Assembly: GCF_030815145.1 (NCBI RefSeq)
Contig: NZ_JAUSWJ010000001.1
Coordinates: forward strand, 3,550,001 to 3,614,000
Reading direction: 5' to 3'
Source of the DNA: Kaistia geumhonensis
GTDB lineage: Bacteria > Pseudomonadota > Alphaproteobacteria > Rhizobiales > Kaistiaceae
DNA: 64,000 nucleotides
Made by a program: the position numbers and the translations under genes. Numbering within the stretch: the first letter of the stretch is position 1; every line of letters starts with the position of its first letter. Under the pieces are notes generated by a model that ran no database searches, was not told the origin of the DNA, and saw only the letters and a program-made list of their open reading frames with translations. This document shows positions 9,689 through 60,018 of this stretch, one piece after another.

Positions 9689-10531
9689 ATGTGGCTCTAT
9701 CTCGCGCCGACGCTCGTCATCAATGTCGTGATCATCCTGATCCCGGCGCTGCTCACGATCGGTCTCGCCTTCTTCCAGTGGGACGGCCTCTCGGCGCCCG
9801 TCTTCGTCGGCCTCGGCAACTTCGTGTCCCTCTGGAACGACAGCGTGTTCTGGACGGCGCTCGAGAACAACCTGATCTGGACGGCGATCTTCCTGACGAT
9901 CCCGATCGCCATGGGCCTTCTCGCCGCGAGCATGCTGCTCATCGTGCCGCGGCGCGGCTCGACCATCTTCCAGGTCGTCTATTTCCTGCCCGTGATCATC
10001 GCCACCGCCATCACCGCCCGCGTCTGGCAGGGCATGATCTACAGCCCAGTCACCGGCATCTTCGGCTGGCTCGGCAAGCTCGGCCTGCCGCTCACCAACC
10101 CGCTGTCGCAGACTTCGACGGCGCTGTTCGGCATCGCCACCGTCGATCTCTGGCACTGGTGGGGCTTTCTCTGCGTGATCTTCTTCGCTGCGCTGCGCCA
10201 GGTGCCGCAGGAGCAGATCGAGGCGGCGCGCATCGAGGGCGCGAGCTTCTGGCAGATGATGCGCTACGTGCTCCTGCCGGGCATCCGCTCCACCATCGTG
10301 CTCATGATGGTGATGACGGTCATCTGGTCGTTCCTCGTCTTCGACTTCGTCTACATCCTGACGCAGGGCGGACCGGCCTTCTCGAGCGAGGTTCTCTCGA
10401 CGCTCGCCTATCGCAAGGCCTTCTACGACCTGAATGTCGGCCAGGCGGCCGCGACCGCGCTCGTCATCAGCCTGTTCGGCCTCGTCGCCACCTATTTCTA
10501 CATCCGCATCCAGCAGAGGGAGGGCGTCTGA
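9689..10531 (+). CDS. Carbohydrate ABC transporter permease (MalF/UgpA type)
   Basis: Inner-membrane permease of 280 residues with about six hydrophobic segments beginning at residue 4. The EAA loop for ATPase contact reads EAARIEGASFWQMMRYVLLP near residue 178. GAAGGA lies eight bases before ATG 9689. The N-terminus is short, with almost no cytoplasmic tail. It follows the binding-protein gene after a 150-bp gap holding two palindromes, and its stop overlaps the next permease start by one base (TGATG), indicating translational coupling. Confidence 0.92.
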   Translation: MWLYLAPTLVINVVIILIPALLTIGLAFFQWDGLSAPVFVGLGNFVSLWNDSVFWTALENNLIWTAIFLTIPIAMGLLAASMLLIVPRRGSTIFQVVYFLPVIIATAITARVWQGMIYSPVTGIFGWLGKLGLPLTNPLSQTSTALFGIATVDLWHWWGFLCVIFFAALRQVPQEQIEAARIEGASFWQMMRYVLLPGIRSTIVLMMVMTVIWSFLVFDFVYILTQGGPAFSSEVLSTLAYRKAFYDLNVGQAAATALVISLFGLVATYFYIRIQQREGV

Positions 10532-53166: not shown

Positions 53167-54075
53167 ATGAACCTTCCGAACGCGTTGAAATCCATCGTCG
53201 GCATTCATGCCTTCATTCCCGAGGACGGCTTCACCGCCGAAACGCTCGGCACGGAGCGCGCCGGCAGCGGCGTCGTGATCGGCGAGGGGCTGGTCCTCAC
53301 CATCGGCTATCTGATCACGGAGGCGGATCGGCTGTGGCTTCGGACCTCCGACGGGCGCGTCGTGCAGGGCCATGCGCTGGCCTATGACCAGGAGACGGGG
53401 TTCGGGCTCGTCCAGTCGCTCGGGCGGCTCGACCTGCCGGCACTCGATCTCGGCCGTGCCAGCGAGATCCGGCTCGGCGATCCCGTCGTTCTGGCCGGGG
53501 GCGAGGCCGGACAGTATGTCCGCGCCAGCGTCGTCGCCAAGCAGGAATTCGCCGGATACTGGGAATATCTGCTCGACGAGGCGCTGTTCACATCGCCGCC
53601 GCACCCCGTCTGGGGCGGCGCCGGTCTCCTCTCGGAGGATGGTCGGCTGATCGGCATCGGCTCGCTGCTCGTGCAGCAGATGACGGAGGAGGGCGAGACG
53701 CGCGACGCCAACATGATCGTGCCGATCGACCTCTTGCCGCCGATCCTCGACGATCTTCTCGCCTATGGCCAGGTCAGGCGGCCGGCACGGCCCTGGCTCG
53801 GCATGTTCTCGGCCGACAGCGAGGATGGCATCGCCGTGGTCAGCCTCTCCGATGGCGGCCCGGCCGCGCTCGCCGGCATCCGGCCGGGAGACCAGATCGA
53901 GGCCGTGGGCGGCCAGGCGGTCGGCACGCTCGCGCAGTTCTACCGTACGCTCTGGAGTCTTGGTCCCGCCGGCACCGAGATCGCCCTCGATATCCGCCGC
54001 GACGGCCGGGAGCGGACGATCCGTGTCACCTCCGCCGATCGCGCCGACTTCCTCAAGAAGCCGCGCCTTCACTGA
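53167..54075 (+). CDS. HtrA-like S1C/PDZ protein without a recognisable catalytic triad
   Basis: About 302 residues: a trypsin-like barrel (AGSGVVIGEGLVLTIGYLIT; RLGDPVVLAGG) and a C-terminal PDZ domain (RPWLGMFSADSEDGIAVVSL; GGPAALAGIRPGDQIEAVGG). Where HtrA proteases have LTNxHV the protein has LTIGYLI, where they have GNSGGPL it has WGGAGLL, and the DLAVL segment reads TGFGLV. All three triad positions appear changed, so it is probably a binding or chaperone-like protein. No signal peptide is seen, unlike DegP. ATG 53167 is preferred over TTG 53152. A hairpin terminator follows. Confidence 0.75.
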   Translation: MNLPNALKSIVGIHAFIPEDGFTAETLGTERAGSGVVIGEGLVLTIGYLITEADRLWLRTSDGRVVQGHALAYDQETGFGLVQSLGRLDLPALDLGRASEIRLGDPVVLAGGEAGQYVRASVVAKQEFAGYWEYLLDEALFTSPPHPVWGGAGLLSEDGRLIGIGSLLVQQMTEEGETRDANMIVPIDLLPPILDDLLAYGQVRRPARPWLGMFSADSEDGIAVVSLSDGGPAALAGIRPGDQIEAVGGQAVGTLAQFYRTLWSLGPAGTEIALDIRRDGRERTIRVTSADRADFLKKPRLH

Positions 54076-54152: not shown

Positions 54153-54184
54153 CCGCCGAATAACAGGGTTCGGCGGGGCTTTTG
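54153..54184 (+). terminator. Rho-independent-type terminator
   Basis: CCGCCGAA (54153-54160) and TTCGGCGG (54169-54176) form a perfect 8-bp stem with an 8-base loop, followed by GGCTTTTG. It ends the HtrA-like transcript and insulates the PqqD-GT-kinase cluster. Confidence 0.72.
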
Positions 54185-54261: not shown

Positions 54262-54696
54262 ATGGCCGATTCGGGCGCTTATCGCGTCAATGAGCCGAAG
54301 GTGGTCAGCGAGACGCTGGACGGCGAAACGATCGCCATCGATCTCGAAAGCGGCAGTTATTTCAGCATGAACCCTGCGGCTTCGGTCGTCTGGAATCTCA
54401 TCCTCGCTGGATACCCGTCCGCCGCCTTTGCGGGGGTCGTCGCTGCCCATTTCGACGTTGCCGCCGAGGACGCCGCGTCCGATATCGCGACATTCGTCGA
54501 GACCCTCGTCCGTGACCGTCTCGTCATCGCCGCCGAGCCGACCGCCGCGGCCGAGACGCCGCCCGCCGGGGTAGAGGCGCGGCTTCCCTATGCATCGCCG
54601 TCCGTCGAGCGTTTCGACGACATGCAGGAACTGCTGCTCGCCGACCCGATCCATGACGTGACGCTCGCCGGCTGGCCCCACCTGCCACCGTCCTGA
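54262..54696 (+). CDS. PqqD-like RRE protein with conserved-looking C-terminal tail
   Basis: A 144-residue protein. Residues about 8-90 match the PqqD/RRE fold: YRVNEPKVVSETLDGETIAI, LESGSYFSMNPAASVVWNLI, then a helical part ending FVETLVRDRLVI. This fold binds peptide leaders in RiPP pathways. A linker leads to a tail (about residues 109-144) containing PYASPSVERFDDMQELLLAD and PIHDVTLAGWP. The tail resembles motifs I recall from PqqD-family proteins of HprK-associated clusters. It has no Cys but several Ser, Thr and Tyr. ATG 54262 with GGGGGGAAG upstream is preferred over ATG 54226. First gene of a five-gene operon. Confidence 0.78.
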   Translation: MADSGAYRVNEPKVVSETLDGETIAIDLESGSYFSMNPAASVVWNLILAGYPSAAFAGVVAAHFDVAAEDAASDIATFVETLVRDRLVIAAEPTAAAETPPAGVEARLPYASPSVERFDDMQELLLADPIHDVTLAGWPHLPPS

Positions 54697-54718
54697 GCCT
54701 TCGGCCGAGGAGCGCGCC

Positions 54719-55372
54719 CTGATCTCCGTCATCGTCCCGGTCTTCAACGGCGCCGGCTTCGTCGCGGAGGCTATCGGGTCGATCCTGGCGCAGCCCGGCA
54801 GCCATGATCCGGAGATCATCGTCGTCGACGATTGCAGCACCGACGAGACGGTCGCCGTGGTCGGGCGCTTCGGCGATCGGGTGCGCCTCGTCCGCCGCGA
54901 TCGCAACGCCGGCGTCGCCGTTGCGCGCAACGACGGGCTGGCGACGGCACGCGGCGATCTCATCGGCTTTCTCGATGCCGACGACCTGTGGACCGTGCGC
55001 CATCTCGAGGCCCTGCTCGGGCGCCTCGATGACGGATCCGCCGACTGCGCGCGGGGCTTCACCCGCACCGTCGCCCTCGCCGATCCCGAAGGTGCGGGCT
55101 CGGTGGCCTATCAGCCGATCCTTCTTGGAGCCGGTCTCTACAGACGGTCCCTCTTCGAGCGCATCGGCTGGTTCGACCCGAAGCTGAGGCTCGGCGAGGA
55201 TTTCGATTTCGCGGCACGGATGATCGAGGCCGGCGCCGTCGTCGCGCAGACCGAGGACGTGGTGCTCGTCTACCGGCGCCACGCGAACTCGGTCGCCGCC
55301 GAAGGCGGTGCGATCGTTCGTGGGCATCTGGCGTGCGTTCGGAATCGTCTGCGCCGGGGAACAGCGGCTTGA
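54719..55372 (+). CDS. GT2 glycosyltransferase with an apparent CTG start
   Basis: A 217-residue GT-A fold glycosyltransferase: ISVIVPVFNGAGFVAEAIGS at the N-terminus, EIIVVDDCSTDETV near 36, NAGVAVARNDGLATARGD near 61, the DxD motif FLDADDLW near 84 and RLGEDFDFAARMIEAG near 157. The frame opens at 54662 and has no ATG, GTG or TTG before 54857, which would delete the first third of the catalytic domain. CTG 54719 starts exactly at the family N-terminus and has GAGGAG five bases upstream. It may glycosylate a peptide or lipid carrier; acceptor unknown. Overlaps the kinase gene by TTGA. Confidence 0.8.
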   Translation: MISVIVPVFNGAGFVAEAIGSILAQPGSHDPEIIVVDDCSTDETVAVVGRFGDRVRLVRRDRNAGVAVARNDGLATARGDLIGFLDADDLWTVRHLEALLGRLDDGSADCARGFTRTVALADPEGAGSVAYQPILLGAGLYRRSLFERIGWFDPKLRLGEDFDFAARMIEAGAVVAQTEDVVLVYRRHANSVAAEGGAIVRGHLACVRNRLRRGTAA

Positions 55373-56439
55373 GCCTCATCGCGCACAGCGAAAAGACAGC
55401 GGGACTGCGGCGACGATTTCTCGAGAGGGTCGTCGGCCCTGCGCTGGCGCTCGCCTCCGCGCGCTCGCCGACCGTCGCCCAGACGTTTCGCGTCGCCGGC
55501 TGCGTGATCCGGGTCGAATATGCGGGGCGCGCTCTGGCCGAACGCCTCGGGCGGGCCTTCAGCCACGCGGCGCTATCGGGCGACGCGACACCCGACCTCG
55601 TCATCCATGCCTGGGATTCGGCGTCGAACGCCCTTCCGCCCCCGGCGCACAGTCTCCCCGTCCAGGATGCGGCCGACCTCGTCGAGGGGGGCGAGGAGAG
55701 CGGGCTGCTGGCCGGATTCGTCAGCAAGGAGGAGACGCTAAACCTCATCGATCTCGAACGCGGCCACGCCTATTTCTGGCTGCCCTCGCTCGACGCGATG
55801 CCCGGCTGGGTTCCGGCCGCGCCGTTCCGGCGCATTCTGCAATGGTTCCTCGCAACGCGGAACGTGCATCTCGTTCATGGCGCCGCCATCGGCCGGCCGG
55901 CCGGCGCGTTGCTCGTGACGGCACGGGGCGGATCGGGCAAGTCGAGCACGGCGCTCGCCGCGGCCGCGCACGGGCTCAGCTATCTCGGCGACGATTATGT
56001 TGCGATCAGCGAGGGAACCCCGCCCGAACTCCACTGCCTCTACAATTCGGCCAAGCTGACGGATGCCAGTCTCGCCCGCCAGTCATTCTATCGCGCATTC
56101 GTCCGCGAGCGCGATGTCGGGGACCGGTTGAAATCGGTGCTGTTCATGGCGGAGGCCATGCCCGAGGTGATCATCCCGGCGGCTCCCCTGATCGGGATCG
56201 CGGTGCCGGTCATCGACCACGCCGGGCGGACCCGTTTCGAGAGGCTGGACGCCAGGGGCGCTTTCCTCGCCCTCGCGCCGAGTTCGATGCTGCATGTGTC
56301 GCTCCAGGGCGGACCGCAGCTGATGCGCGCGCTGCGCCATCTCGTCGGGACGGCCCCCTGCTACCGGCTGATGCTCGGCCGCGAGCCGGCCGAGATCGCG
56401 GATGCGATCGCCGCCTTTGTCGACGGGAGGGGGGCGTGA
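55369..56439 (+). CDS. HprK-like serine kinase-related protein
   Basis: About 356 residues. The C-terminal half matches HPr-kinase-like proteins: VHLVHGAAIGRPAGALLVTA, Walker A ARGGSGKSSTA near 186-196 and YLGDDYVAI near 204. The N-terminal half (FRVAGCVIRVEYAGRALAER) is a separate domain of the kind seen in HprK-related kinase A and lasso-peptide kinases. It has no HPr-binding Gly-rich loop that I can identify, so HPr is an unlikely substrate. TTG 55369 has GGGGA eight bases upstream and overlaps the GT2 stop; GTG 55333 is the alternative. Likely phosphorylates a peptide or sugar hydroxyl in the pathway. Confidence 0.76.
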   Translation: MSLIAHSEKTAGLRRRFLERVVGPALALASARSPTVAQTFRVAGCVIRVEYAGRALAERLGRAFSHAALSGDATPDLVIHAWDSASNALPPPAHSLPVQDAADLVEGGEESGLLAGFVSKEETLNLIDLERGHAYFWLPSLDAMPGWVPAAPFRRILQWFLATRNVHLVHGAAIGRPAGALLVTARGGSGKSSTALAAAAHGLSYLGDDYVAISEGTPPELHCLYNSAKLTDASLARQSFYRAFVRERDVGDRLKSVLFMAEAMPEVIIPAAPLIGIAVPVIDHAGRTRFERLDARGAFLALAPSSMLHVSLQGGPQLMRALRHLVGTAPCYRLMLGREPAEIADAIAAFVDGRGA

Positions 56440-58811
56440 CCGATCTGGCGGTGCTGCGGCGCCTCCTTCCCTATTTCTCGGGCCAGCCGCTGCGGGCCGC
56501 CGCCGCGATCCTGCTCATCATCGTCCAGGCGGCGGCCATGCTGCCGATCGCGGGGCTCGTCCAGCATGTGTTCGACCGCACGCTCGGCGGAGGCGACACG
56601 GGAGGCCTCGTCCTGACGCTCGGGGCGGTCCTCGGCCTCTTCACGCTGAACGCGCTGGCGACGGTCGCCACCCGGCATGTCGCGCTCGGCATCATCAAGC
56701 CGGGTATCCGGCGCATGCGATCCGATGCGGCACGCAATCTGCTCGCCCGCGAGCCGTCCTTCTTCGCCACCGCCGATATCGACCGGCTTCAGACCGCGAT
56801 GGTGCGCAACAGCGAGCGCGTCGACTGGCTCGTGACGGCGCTGTTCACCCAGGTCGTCCCGGGTCTGATGGTCTCGGCCGTGCTGCTCGGCGTCCTCCTC
56901 GCGATCAATCCGCTGCTCTTCCTCGCCACGGCGGTGCCGATGGCTGCCGGCTATGTCTTCACGCAGATCTTCCGCGGCCATATGCGCCGGCAGGTCGCGC
57001 TGTTCCATGGGGATTACGACCACTACGGCAAGGTCGTGGCCTTCCTGCTGCGCTTCAGCGAGTTGATCCGCATGCATGGCGCCGAGCCCGCCGCGCTCGA
57101 TCGGATGGACGGCGCCGCCGAGGCGATGCGCCGTTCCGGCCAGCGTCTGGCCTGGATGGGCACCGCGCACACCGTGCTTCAGAACTACGTGCTGTCGTTC
57201 GGCGCCGTGGTGGTGCTTCTCATCGGCGGCTTGCAGGTGATCGCCGGCCAGATCAGCATCGGCGGGCTCCTCTCGTTCTATATCTGCCTCAACATCCTGA
57301 CCGGCCAGGCGCGCTCGGTGATCGGAACGCTGCCGGTCGTCAGCGAGGGCGTCGCCTGCGCCGAGGCGATGGCACCCCATCTCGTGCCGCCGCCCCCTGC
57401 CGCCGAGGGAGTGCCGTTCGAGGGTCTCCGCGACGGGATCGAGCTGACCGGCGCCAGCATCGCCATGGGCGGAGCGACCCTGATCGAGGGCGGCGCGCTC
57501 AGGCTCGGCAAGGGCGAGATCGTCGGCCTCTTCGGTGCGTCCGGTTCCGGCAAGACGACGCTGCTTTCGACACTGCTCAGCGTGCATCCGCTTCGCGGGG
57601 GCAGGCTGACGGTCGACGGCCGAGCCATCGAGAGCCTCGACCTTGGCAGCTATCGGCGCCGCGTCGGCGTCCTGTCGCAGACGATGCTGCTCTTTCCCGG
57701 CACGATCCGCGACAATCTCGTCTTCGGCCTCGAGGGCGTGACGGACGCGGCGCTCGACGAGGCGTGCCGGCAAGCGTTCGTGAACGATCTCGTCGCTTCC
57801 CTGCCGGACGGCTACGACACGGTCATCGGCGAGCGCGGGATGCGTCTGTCGGGTGGGCAGGCGCAGCGCATCGCGCTCGCCCGCGCCTTCCTGCGCGCGC
57901 CCGATATCCTGCTGCTGGACGAGCCCGACAATCATCTCGACGACAGGATGATCGCCGACATCCTTTCCGGCATTCGCGCGCGCGGCACCACGACACTCCT
58001 GGTCAGTCACAATCGCGGCCTCATCGGCCTCATCGACCGCGCCTATGAGGTGAGATCCGGGAGCGTGATGGAAATCGAGACTGGACTCGCCTCCGCCGCA
58101 GCCGCGGGCCAGAGGCCGCTCGTGAGCGTCGTCATGCCGGCCTTCAATGCCGAGCGCTACATCGTGGAGGCCATCGCGAGCGTCCTTGGCCAGAGCTATC
58201 CGCGCATCGAACTCATCGTCGTCAATGACGGCTCGACGGACCGAACTGGCGAGATCGCGCGCGGGTTCGGCGACCGGCTGACCGTCATCGACAGCCCGGC
58301 CAACGGCGGCAGCAGCGACGCACGCAATCGCGGGATCGCTGCGGCGGGGGGAGAGTTCATCGCCTTCATGGACGCCGACGACATCTGGACGAGCGACAAG
58401 ATCGAACGGCAGATGGAGAGCTTCTCGCGCGAGCCGGAACTCGGCATCTCCTTCACGCATATGCAGTGCTTCATCAGCCCCGAGCTGCCGGACGCGGTGA
58501 AGGCGATGCGCGCATGCCCGGCCGAGCCGCAGGCCGGCATCGTCTGCGGGACGGCGCTCGCGCGCAAGAGCGTTGTGGAGGCGACCGGACCCTTCGACAC
58601 CGGCCTCAAGGTCGGCGAATTCATCGACTGGTTCGCGCGCGCCAAGGCCGCCGGCTTCACCTGGCGGCTCGAGCCGGGCGTCCATCTCAGGCGTCGCATC
58701 CATGACACCAACAAGGGCGTCGTGGACCGTGCCAGCTACGCGGACTATGTGCGCGTCGTGCGCAATGCGCTGCGTCGCCGGGCCGAGCTCGAGGCGACGG
58801 CCGATGACTGA
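56436..58811 (+). CDS. ABC exporter fused to a GT2 glycosyltransferase domain
   Basis: One uninterrupted 791-residue frame. Residues about 15-300 form a six-segment exporter membrane domain (LPIAGLVQHVFDRTLGG; TRHVALGIIKPGIRRMRSDA). Residues about 330-545 form an ATPase: Walker A FGASGSGKTTLLSTL near 367, Q-loop VGVLSQTMLLFPGTIRDNL near 410, signature LSGGQAQRIALARAF near 471, Walker B ILLLDEPDNHLDD near 489. Residues about 560-791 form a complete GT2 domain (LVSVVMPAFNAERYIVEAIA; IVVNDGSTDRT; DADD near 644). GTG 56436 has GGGAGGGG upstream and overlaps the kinase stop. There is no C39 peptidase domain. Fusion of exporter and GT2 is unusual and suggests coupled glycosylation and export. Confidence 0.82.
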   Translation: MTDLAVLRRLLPYFSGQPLRAAAAILLIIVQAAAMLPIAGLVQHVFDRTLGGGDTGGLVLTLGAVLGLFTLNALATVATRHVALGIIKPGIRRMRSDAARNLLAREPSFFATADIDRLQTAMVRNSERVDWLVTALFTQVVPGLMVSAVLLGVLLAINPLLFLATAVPMAAGYVFTQIFRGHMRRQVALFHGDYDHYGKVVAFLLRFSELIRMHGAEPAALDRMDGAAEAMRRSGQRLAWMGTAHTVLQNYVLSFGAVVVLLIGGLQVIAGQISIGGLLSFYICLNILTGQARSVIGTLPVVSEGVACAEAMAPHLVPPPPAAEGVPFEGLRDGIELTGASIAMGGATLIEGGALRLGKGEIVGLFGASGSGKTTLLSTLLSVHPLRGGRLTVDGRAIESLDLGSYRRRVGVLSQTMLLFPGTIRDNLVFGLEGVTDAALDEACRQAFVNDLVASLPDGYDTVIGERGMRLSGGQAQRIALARAFLRAPDILLLDEPDNHLDDRMIADILSGIRARGTTTLLVSHNRGLIGLIDRAYEVRSGSVMEIETGLASAAAAGQRPLVSVVMPAFNAERYIVEAIASVLGQSYPRIELIVVNDGSTDRTGEIARGFGDRLTVIDSPANGGSSDARNRGIAAAGGEFIAFMDADDIWTSDKIERQMESFSREPELGISFTHMQCFISPELPDAVKAMRACPAEPQAGIVCGTALARKSVVEATGPFDTGLKVGEFIDWFARAKAAGFTWRLEPGVHLRRRIHDTNKGVVDRASYADYVRVVRNALRRRAELEATADD

Positions 58812-60018
58812 TCTCTATCCCGAGAGCTTTCCCGATCCGGTCGAGGAGGCGTTCCTGCGTCTCGTCCTCGCGCCTGACAGCGCGTTCCGCGAGCGCTGGG
58901 AGTGCTGGAAGCGGGCGACCGTCTTCGACGACATTCCGTTCGCGGTGCTGCGGACGCTGCCGATGCTGCATCTGCGTCTGGCGGCGCTCGGCATCGAGGA
59001 CGACGAACTCACGGGGCGCATCCGCGGCGTCTATCGCCAGGCCTGGTTCCGCAACCAGATGCTGCTCGACCGGACGGCGAAGATCGCCGTCGCGTTCAAC
59101 GCGGCGGACATTCCGGTCATGCTGCTCAAGGGCGTCGCGATGATGACCGACGTCTTTCCCAGCGCCGGGGCCCGGATGACGGACGATGCCGACCTCATGG
59201 TGCATGAGCGCGACGTCCTGAAGGCCGTCGACCTGATGCGCGTGCAGGGTGGCAGGCGCCGGGCGCTCGCCCTTGCGGAGACCGACGATTTCGCCGAGGC
59301 GCATCTCGCCTTCAGCCATGCCGTCGCGTTCGAGCTTCCCGGCGGCGTGGCGCTCGACCTTCACTGGCAGCCCTACCACAACAGCGCGATCGACCACCCC
59401 GTGAGGCTGCTGATGCTGCGCGATCCCTCGCCGGCGCCCGATATCGCCTCCGGCATCTGGGCACGGGCGCGGCATGGACACCTCAAGGGCGTGCCCGTCC
59501 TGCTCCAGTCGCTCGAGGACATGCTGCTGCATACGATCGAGCATGGCGCCCGCGCCAATGCGCACCGGCCGTTCCGCTGGGTGCTCGACGCGTCGGCGAT
59601 CATCGCGACGCCTGGCTTCGACTTCGATCGGTTCGCGGCCATCGCGGCCTCGACACCGTTCGCCATCCATGCGCGCGTCGCCTGCCGCTATCTGTCGGAG
59701 CGAATGGACATCGCCGTTCCGCCCGCCGCCATGGCCGCGCTCGACGCGGTCCCGGTCTCGAAGCCAGAGGTGCAGGACTATTACAGGACCGGCCGCATGG
59801 GGCGCCCGTCGCTGTTCGGGAAACTGCCGCTGATCTGGTACGCCTACTGGAAGACGCATCGCGGCGGCAGCCTGGCCGGCCGATTGAAGAACTTTCCCGG
59901 CTATCTCAGGCGGCAGTGGGAACTGCCGCCCGAACAGGGCCTCCTGGCCTTCGCGGTCGCGAAATATCGCCGCCGCCTGCCGCAATGCCTCCGACCGGCT
60001 GGACCGCGTCGGCGCTGA
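58804..60018 (+). CDS. Nucleotidyltransferase-family protein (NTP_transf_5-like)
   Basis: A 404-residue protein of the uncharacterised nucleotidyltransferase family often encoded with PqqD, HprK-like and lasso-peptide genes. The core is IPVMLLKGVAMMTDVFPSAG near 101 and RMTDDADLMVHERDVLKAVD near 121, with the D-x-D-type metal pair, then FSHAVAFELPGGVALDLHWQ near 173 and a helical C-terminal half. It would transfer a nucleotide to a hydroxyl of peptide, sugar or protein. The start overlaps the preceding stop by 8 bp. Last gene of the cluster, ending at a bidirectional hairpin. Confidence 0.76.
   Translation: MTDLYPESFPDPVEEAFLRLVLAPDSAFRERWECWKRATVFDDIPFAVLRTLPMLHLRLAALGIEDDELTGRIRGVYRQAWFRNQMLLDRTAKIAVAFNAADIPVMLLKGVAMMTDVFPSAGARMTDDADLMVHERDVLKAVDLMRVQGGRRRALALAETDDFAEAHLAFSHAVAFELPGGVALDLHWQPYHNSAIDHPVRLLMLRDPSPAPDIASGIWARARHGHLKGVPVLLQSLEDMLLHTIEHGARANAHRPFRWVLDASAIIATPGFDFDRFAAIAASTPFAIHARVACRYLSERMDIAVPPAAMAALDAVPVSKPEVQDYYRTGRMGRPSLFGKLPLIWYAYWKTHRGGSLAGRLKNFPGYLRRQWELPPEQGLLAFAVAKYRRRLPQCLRPAGPRRR

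Follow-up and report, generated by a model that had tools for sequence, protein, structure and literature searches.

An RRE protein with a fused, conserved precursor-like tail is encoded beside lasso-type tailoring enzymes and glycosyltransferases

Related systems

RREs normally bind a separate precursor. In the HPr-rel-A set (TIGR04352/TIGR04353), a PqqD-like protein is found beside an HprK-like kinase, and the cassette that we describe here likewise pairs these two proteins. The same pair is shared with SynChlorMet (ScmC/ScmD), to which the matches are weak. In glycocins, a GT2 enzyme (SunS) acts on a ribosomal peptide.

The most similar described systems are the tailoring pathways for lasso peptides, such as those with paeninodin PadeK, pseudomycoidin PsmK/PsmN, or BsfA/BsfB1/BsfK. 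As presented in excerpts of PMC9266682 and PMC10368454, these have several features in common with our cluster: a B1-like RRE, the position of a YxxPxL-like leader, an HprK-like kinase with a published motif, an NTP_transf_5-like protein, and an ABC exporter. PsmK phosphorylates the C-terminal Ser of a lasso peptide and PsmN adds a hexose, with an alternative left open (excerpt of PMC9266682). The addition of BsfB1 speeds up phosphorylation by BsfK (excerpt of PMC10368454). Unlike these pathways, our cluster has a precursor-like tail that is fused to the RRE, with a constant core and no conserved C-terminal Ser; the cassette contains neither a B2 protease nor a cyclase, and it contains one to several GT2 enzymes.

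RREs have also been linked to glycosyltransferases by fusions that are mentioned in an excerpt of the RRE-Finder paper (PMC7470986), but in our case the RRE is fused to a peptide tail instead. New RRE domain fusions in general have been reported, and these could include proteins of our type (excerpt of PMC12710340). In the open-access literature that we searched, we did not find a fusion of an RRE to its own peptide of this kind.

Organization of the gene cluster

The source genome is a single contig of 4.59 Mb. The window (the whole 64,000-nucleotide stretch of DNA that we analyzed) spans positions 3,550,001-3,614,000 of this contig and contains five closely spaced genes, A to E, which are arranged head to tail on the forward strand at 54262-60018. 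Gene A (54262..54696) encodes a 144-residue protein with an RRE (PqqD fold, nearest to lasso B1; PqqD in Pfam) and a conserved C-terminal tail. Gene B (54719..55372) encodes a GT2 glycosyltransferase (GT2 in Pfam, 6.5e-32), and gene C (55369..56439) encodes an HprK-like kinase with the motif of lasso-precursor kinases. Gene D (56436..58811) encodes an ABC exporter (amino acids 1-547) that is fused to a GT2 domain (amino acids 560-791). Gene E (58804..60018) encodes an NTP_transf_5 nucleotidyltransferase-like protein (PF14907, 2.5e-33). A first-pass annotation, made from the sequence alone, had proposed these five genes and their assignments, and both hold up. Neighboring genes overlap or are separated by at most 22 bases, so there is no space between them for a separate precursor gene.

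Two of the genes have unusual starts. Gene B has no ATG, GTG, or TTG that would give the full-length protein. A CTG at 54719, behind an AGGAG, fits and is probably the start codon; both the AGGAG and the CTG are kept in the Bosea relative L031 (at about position 9906). The TTG start of gene C at 55369 overlaps the stop codon of gene B, and a GTG at 55333 is a possible alternative.

The cluster had also been described as insulated by hairpins on both sides. The upstream hairpin (an 8-bp stem at 54153-54176, followed by TTTT) is apparent from the bases themselves, but a terminator scan listed neither the upstream nor the downstream one, so the insulation is putative.

A gene for a trypsin-like/PDZ protein lies upstream of gene A, at 53167-54075. 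We considered this protein as the missing protease and rejected it, because two Bosea genomes that lack the cluster (G099 and G637, with no A-family match at E <= 1e-6) carry the same gene beside other genes. The region that we take to hold its catalytic Ser reads VWGGAGLL, and the protein may be inactive.

Gene A encodes an RRE fused to a conserved tail

Protein A is well above the cut-off for PqqD in Pfam (2e-11; 44.5 bits, with a cut-off of 23.4). By sequence, the nearest solved relative of its family profile is TbiB1 (PDB 5v1u, 1.5e-18), and the top Foldseek matches to the AlphaFold2 model of A are complexes of TbiB1 with a lasso leader. By both comparisons, A contains a B1-type RRE. Its score against the lasso B1 model NF033530 is 43.6 bits, under the cut-off of 70. 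TbiB1 was solved with a separate leader peptide (PDB 5v1u/5v1v), and its chains of 83-91 residues align to the RRE part of A only. The tail begins about 20 residues beyond the RRE.

The tail consists of a part that resembles a lasso leader (54589..54642; residues 110-127, YxxPxV...DMxELLLA) and a core (54643..54678; residues 128-139, DPIHDVTLAGWP) that follows the pattern DP[IV]H[ED]Vx(3-4)GWP. In the lasso leader motif YxxPxL, the Tyr, Pro, and Leu are at positions -17, -14, and -12 (excerpt of PMC10368454). Y110, P113, and V115 of A correspond to these positions, which means that the core starts just past the point of lasso cleavage. Among 30 aligned homologs, 22 have the hydrophobic-xxPx-hydrophobic motif, 23 have P113, and 29 have D120.

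Conservation is higher in the core than in the RRE. Over the 30 aligned sequences, the mean column entropy is 0.84 bits for the core and 2.2 bits for the RRE, where the core columns (130-138) represent 27 of the 30 sequences and three divergent cores (LDPPLP, see below) are gapped. The corresponding values are 2.95 bits for the linker, 1.9 bits for the leader-like part, and 2.97 bits for the last five residues. In 21 A proteins with tails, two residues of the RRE (E22 and G31) and seven of the tail (D120, D128, P129, H131, G137, W138, and P139) are invariant; these proteins were chosen for having a tail (L034, L052, L053, and tail-less matches were left out), so the invariance is partly due to that choice. 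In a less biased set of 14 loci, which were retrieved by patterns based on the RRE portion, the tail is present in 13 (the exception is L080), and these 13 loci and the window have the same invariant tail residues as the set of 21. The sets of 21, 14, and 30 sequences overlap partly.

We considered whether the tail might be a known domain and rejected this: it has no match in NCBIfam (leader models included) or in the PDB, and the one Pfam match (Rop, 0.065, in one of 21 tails) is at the level of chance. The lasso leader model NF033521 does not match any of the fused tails. The label "leader" therefore comes from the position of the motif and from a strand predicted by AlphaFold2, which together suggest that this part of the tail is leader-like. 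Because NF033521 misses the fused tails, it would also miss a precursor encoded on its own if the leader of that precursor diverges as much.

In a first AlphaFold2 run (14 sequences), the mean pLDDT was 82.4. Residues 111-120 had a mean pLDDT of 93, with a strand at 115-118. Confidence was lower for the linker (residues 91-110; 71 and 66) and fell as far as 48 and 46 for residues 131-144. A second run with the Chloroflexota protein from L070 listed first, and with no Bosea sequences, gave a pLDDT of 91 for the leader-like part, a strand at 117-119, and again low confidence for the core; the 12 sequences in this run were also in the first. Given the strand assignment and its confidence, the leader-like strand probably pairs with the RRE's own sheet.

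Four loci (L034, L098, L099, and L100) have a second type of core: the same leader part is followed by LDPPLP. A homolog of E and a GT2 are found within 6 kb in all four of these, and C in two. Two other variants are a core in L097 that reads DIVH, and an RRE protein (L053:9990-10379) whose tail ends after the leader-like YEKPELYCHGNLEQLILSGE, without a core.

Across the 30 tails, there is no conserved Ser or Thr in the core, and in 11 tails, Ser, Thr, and Tyr are all missing from D128 onward. A C-terminal Ser in the window (Thr in L031) could be a paeninodin-like phosphorylation site, but we rejected this candidate because it is not general across the 30 tails. In the main core type, the invariant residues that could be acceptors are D128, H131, and W138.

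We also considered stand-alone copies of the tail and rejected the idea after a search of the class, in which up to 19 candidates were scored per genome. The tail profile matched at least 11 of 385 genomes, including the source genome. Two of the matches are 27-residue frames with a stop codon, which we take to be chance, and three cover the leader part only.

The modifying enzymes and the exporter

HMM searches place the RRE well over its cut-off, but protein C is below the cut-offs in Pfam and NCBIfam (Hpr_kinase_C, 0.057; TIGR04352, 3.9e-5 at 22.9 bits). The family profile of C gives a firmer call, with a match to the HprK structure 1jb1 at 1.8e-8. H170, G188, G190, K191, D208, and D209 are invariant in 18 aligned sequences. 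These sequences have the H-G-G-G-K-S-D-D active-site motif, with the same spacings as in BsfK (21 residues from H to K and 17 from K to D; excerpt of PMC10368454); in the window and in L031, Ala takes the place of the first Gly. Kinases of the lasso-precursor type act on a conserved Ser, and no such acceptor is present in the 30 tails, so the known chemistry of lasso kinases is not simply transferable.

The first-pass annotation had likened the cluster to the HPr-rel-A type. We rejected membership in that set on scores: TIGR04353 does not match A at E <= 0.1, and TIGR04352, with a cut-off of 200 bits, gives C a score of 23. Membership in SynChlorMet was rejected as well, as the match to ScmD (TIGR04248) is 25.7 bits with a cut-off of 100; also, unlike SynChlorMet, none of the five proteins has a radical SAM domain in Pfam. 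The resemblance to glycocins is similarly limited, as B scores 18.4 bits against TIGR04195 (cut-off of 350) and the tail has no Cys.

In protein D, Pfam finds ABC_membrane (1.5e-18), ABC_tran (7.6e-28), and GT2 (1.1e-34) in one chain and lists no peptidase domain. The best NCBIfam match of the exporter is MsbA, below its cut-off. Pfam identifies no protease among the five proteins. Two residues of E, D128 and D130, hardly vary among 15 sequences that we chose, but this does not hold in a set of 10. Three NTP_transf_5 homologs seem to lack the DxD: L068:358-1434 (reverse strand), L079:4310-5410, and L035:8425-9786 (reverse strand).

Relation to lasso pathways

The proposed link to the RRE, kinase, and nucleotidyltransferase of lasso systems is supported by the similarity of A to TbiB1 and by the kinase motif. 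Of the features of a lasso cluster, the B1-type RRE is present, and a separate precursor, a B2 peptidase (PF13471), and a cyclase (PF00733) were not found. As the first-pass annotation had noticed locally, the protease is absent: PF13471 has no match in the entire source genome (G000). PF00733 has no match among the five proteins of the cassette and two partial matches elsewhere in the source genome, both outside the window (32.6 and 26.3 bits, with a cut-off of 21); these cover only positions 16-90 and 25-87 of 354. The source genome thus has no full-length lasso cyclase. It also has no match over the cut-off for the lasso leader NF033521, a model that would miss a leader that is too divergent.

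Among 18 genomes with A, six have PF13471 at E <= 0.001 (four over the cut-off), but in no genome do it and a tailed A share a contig with less than 100 kb between them. NF033521 is over its cut-off in three of 23 genomes, each time beside matches to PF13471 and PF00733, at separate lasso loci; no recognized lasso-type leader is near a tailed A in any of the 23 genomes. The genomes with a separate lasso locus (leader, protease, and cyclase matches) are G069, G105, and G209. In G069, this locus is on the same contig, about 129 kb from the tailed A, and contains a leader ORF, a tail-less RRE, and protease and cyclase matches.

One genome (G182) has a strong PF00733 match about 3 kb from a tailed A. 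L037 is the only tailed-A locus in the 18 genomes with a full Asn synthase (PF00733 and GATase; L037:12287-14086), which is encoded about 2 kb downstream.

Distribution and gene neighborhoods

Within the order, 24 of 249 genomes, including the source genome, have a match to A at E <= 0.001, and some of these matches lack the tail. Within the genus, an A-family gene is found in 7 of 14 genomes, again including our own. In the phylum, at least 23 of 398 genomes match the A profile at E <= 1e-12 when up to nine candidates are scored per genome, and six of these matches extend over the tail. Tailed A proteins are found in Alphaproteobacteria (such as Stella), in Chloroflexota (such as Chloroploca), and in metagenome-assembled genomes (MAGs) that are labelled as Acidobacteriota (Bryobacterales) or Actinomycetota (Mycobacterium and Actinomycetes). 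The Acidobacteriota and Actinomycetota loci are all from MAGs, whose binning can err. Tailed A is also found in the cyanobacterium Crinalium epipsammum, on plasmid NC_019735.1 (L081), where PqqD, nucleotidyltransferase, HPr kinase, FkbM, and glycosyltransferase genes are in a row. This plasmid is typed as mobilizable; a second nucleotidyltransferase is encoded close by, and an ABC transporter at a distance of about 9 kb.

The recurring unit around A consists of the HprK-like kinase C, one to several GT2s, and the NTP_transf_5 protein E. The order A-C-GT2-GT2-E is frequent, as in Aestuariivirga (L069) and in Acidobacteriota MAGs (L073 and L075), and Stella (L078) has a cassette of the A-C-GT2-GT2 type without E. 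A, C, GT2, and E co-occur in most, but not all, of the loci that we examined, so the cluster recognized in the first pass is a recurring one. In contrast, the exporter-glycosyltransferase fusion is not a general part of it. Among the loci with gene calls, the fusion is confined to the Bosea form, that is, the window and L031 (the same locus as L067, the closest Bosea relative), where the homolog of D has 788 amino acids, and we rejected it as a core part of the system. (Lower-GC loci, such as L038, L049, L052, and L070-L072, were analyzed with six-frame searches in place of gene calling.) Separate ABC exporter proteins are encoded a few kb from A in Chloroploca (L070) and in the Mycobacterium MAG (L076).

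To quantify the association of the tail with its partners, we counted homologs within 6 kb of 74 RREs from 73 sources. (L067-L069 were omitted since they are the same places as L031, L033, and L032.) 49 of the RREs have tails (45 of the HIS-GWP type, or type I, and 4 of the LDPPLP type, or type II); the 25 without tails are mostly from the phylum search and include L053 and L080. A GT2 is nearby for 44/49 tailed and 6/25 tail-less RREs. This count covers GT2s that resemble those of the window, and it missed one or more in L036. C is nearby for 42/49 and 16/25, and E for 37/49 and 8/25; some of the contigs are short. The Fisher P values are 2e-8 for GT2, 4e-4 for E, and 0.04 for C, uncorrected for relatedness, as several loci come from one genus (such as L036, L101, L102, and L104). 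All three partners are present within 6 kb in 29 of the 45 type I loci and in 31 of the 49 tailed loci. L104 has none of the three, and L095 has neither C nor E. The number of similar GT2s per locus ranges from 0 to 5.

Proposed function of the tail

The earlier suggestion that the tail of the RRE protein might be a substrate gains support from the leader-like strand and the near-invariant core. The explanation that we favor, at a little short of an even chance, is that A combines a RiPP-type precursor and the RRE that recognizes it in one protein, and that lasso-type enzymes and GT2s build a glycopeptide or phosphoglycopeptide on it. The tail would be the substrate, and the cluster may represent an undescribed pathway of peptide modification that uses lasso tools without making a lasso.

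Under this proposal, the leader-like strand would sit in the RRE's own peptide groove, either in cis or between two copies of A, and would keep the core exposed as a substrate at all times. Like a lasso B1 protein with its kinase, the RRE would recruit C and E. C and E would put a phosphate and/or the first sugar on the core, for which phosphorylation by PsmK and hexose addition by PsmN are a precedent (excerpt of PMC9266682). The GT2 enzymes would then extend the glycan, so that the number of GT2s would vary by species while the peptide is constant. In Bosea, the final glycosylation would be coupled to export by the ABC-GT2 fusion. Self-presentation of this kind is in line with a core that does not change, with numbers of similar GT2s that do (0-5), and with the absence of space for a second precursor. 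On the other side, a near-invariant core is also expected of a docking motif, and the E homologs in L068, L079, and L035 appear to lack parts of the nucleotidyltransferase motif.

The main rival, which is possible but on the unlikely side, is that the tail is for docking or scaffolding: the strand would complete the RRE, the core would recruit the glycosyltransferases, the kinase, and the nucleotidyltransferase, and the true substrate would be another molecule (a peptide encoded elsewhere, a sugar, or a lipid). Docking accounts for the conservation equally well. It is also consistent with the lack of a conserved Ser or Thr in the core, with the co-occurrence of the tail and GT2s, with the lack of a recognized protease in the cassette, and with the potential of the lasso leader model to miss a divergent separate precursor. 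However, no recognized lasso-type leader is near tailed A in the 23 genomes, and the motif is positioned as it is in precursors. Also, in type II loci the core differs, yet E is kept in all four and C in two of the four.

It is improbable that the cluster serves to synthesize or decorate a polysaccharide or a lipid-linked glycan, with the RRE as a regulatory subunit and the kinase acting on a sugar or lipid. A few loci have genes that would suit such a role: a Glycos_transf_1 gene (L047), a sub-threshold match to polysaccharide deacetylase (L036), and an MFS gene (L039). The sub-cut-off match of the exporter to MsbA and the varying number of GT2s are in keeping with it as well. But the active-site motif of the kinase is the one found in the peptide kinases of lasso systems, lasso B1 is the closest match to the RRE, and the domains listed for the five proteins include no polymerase and no phosphoglycosyltransferase. 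Finally, a decayed lasso cluster that lost its cyclase and protease would explain the lasso-like RRE, kinase, and nucleotidyltransferase in a genome with no PF13471 and only partial PF00733 matches, but this is very improbable and we rejected it, because decay would not give an architecture with a highly conserved tail that recurs in several phyla, and G069, G105, and G209 each have a lasso locus elsewhere as well.

If the tail is the substrate, a broader and more doubtful proposal is that the DP[IV]H[ED]V...GWP core defines a widespread class of ribosomal primers for variable glycans, which would be started by the lasso-type kinase and nucleotidyltransferase on a residue other than Ser or Thr (the invariant His or Asp). 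Variation would then be in the glycan and not in the peptide, the opposite of how RiPPs ordinarily diversify. The parts and the chemistry are known from lasso tailoring. What we did not find described in the literature searched is the fusion with a near-invariant core, together with GT2s and mostly without lasso enzymes. A seems to carry both halves, the RRE and the peptide, with a core that is almost unchanged over several phyla. The tail is also a handle for finding clusters that are missed by the NCBIfam models for lasso and HPr-rel-A systems that we tested. And it raises the question of how an HprK-like kinase and an NTP_transf_5 protein act on a peptide without a conserved Ser acceptor.

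A possible split form

The tail-less locus L080 (7653-14070) contains genes for PqqD, NTP_transf_5, Asn synthase, a B12/radical SAM protein, and an HprK-like protein. It also contains a 29-residue ORF with YAKPEV that ends in LSQMTFSSH. This small ORF has no family match and is one of seven matches to the motif in 20 kb. As judged from these sequences, L080 is possibly a split form of the RRE and its precursor.
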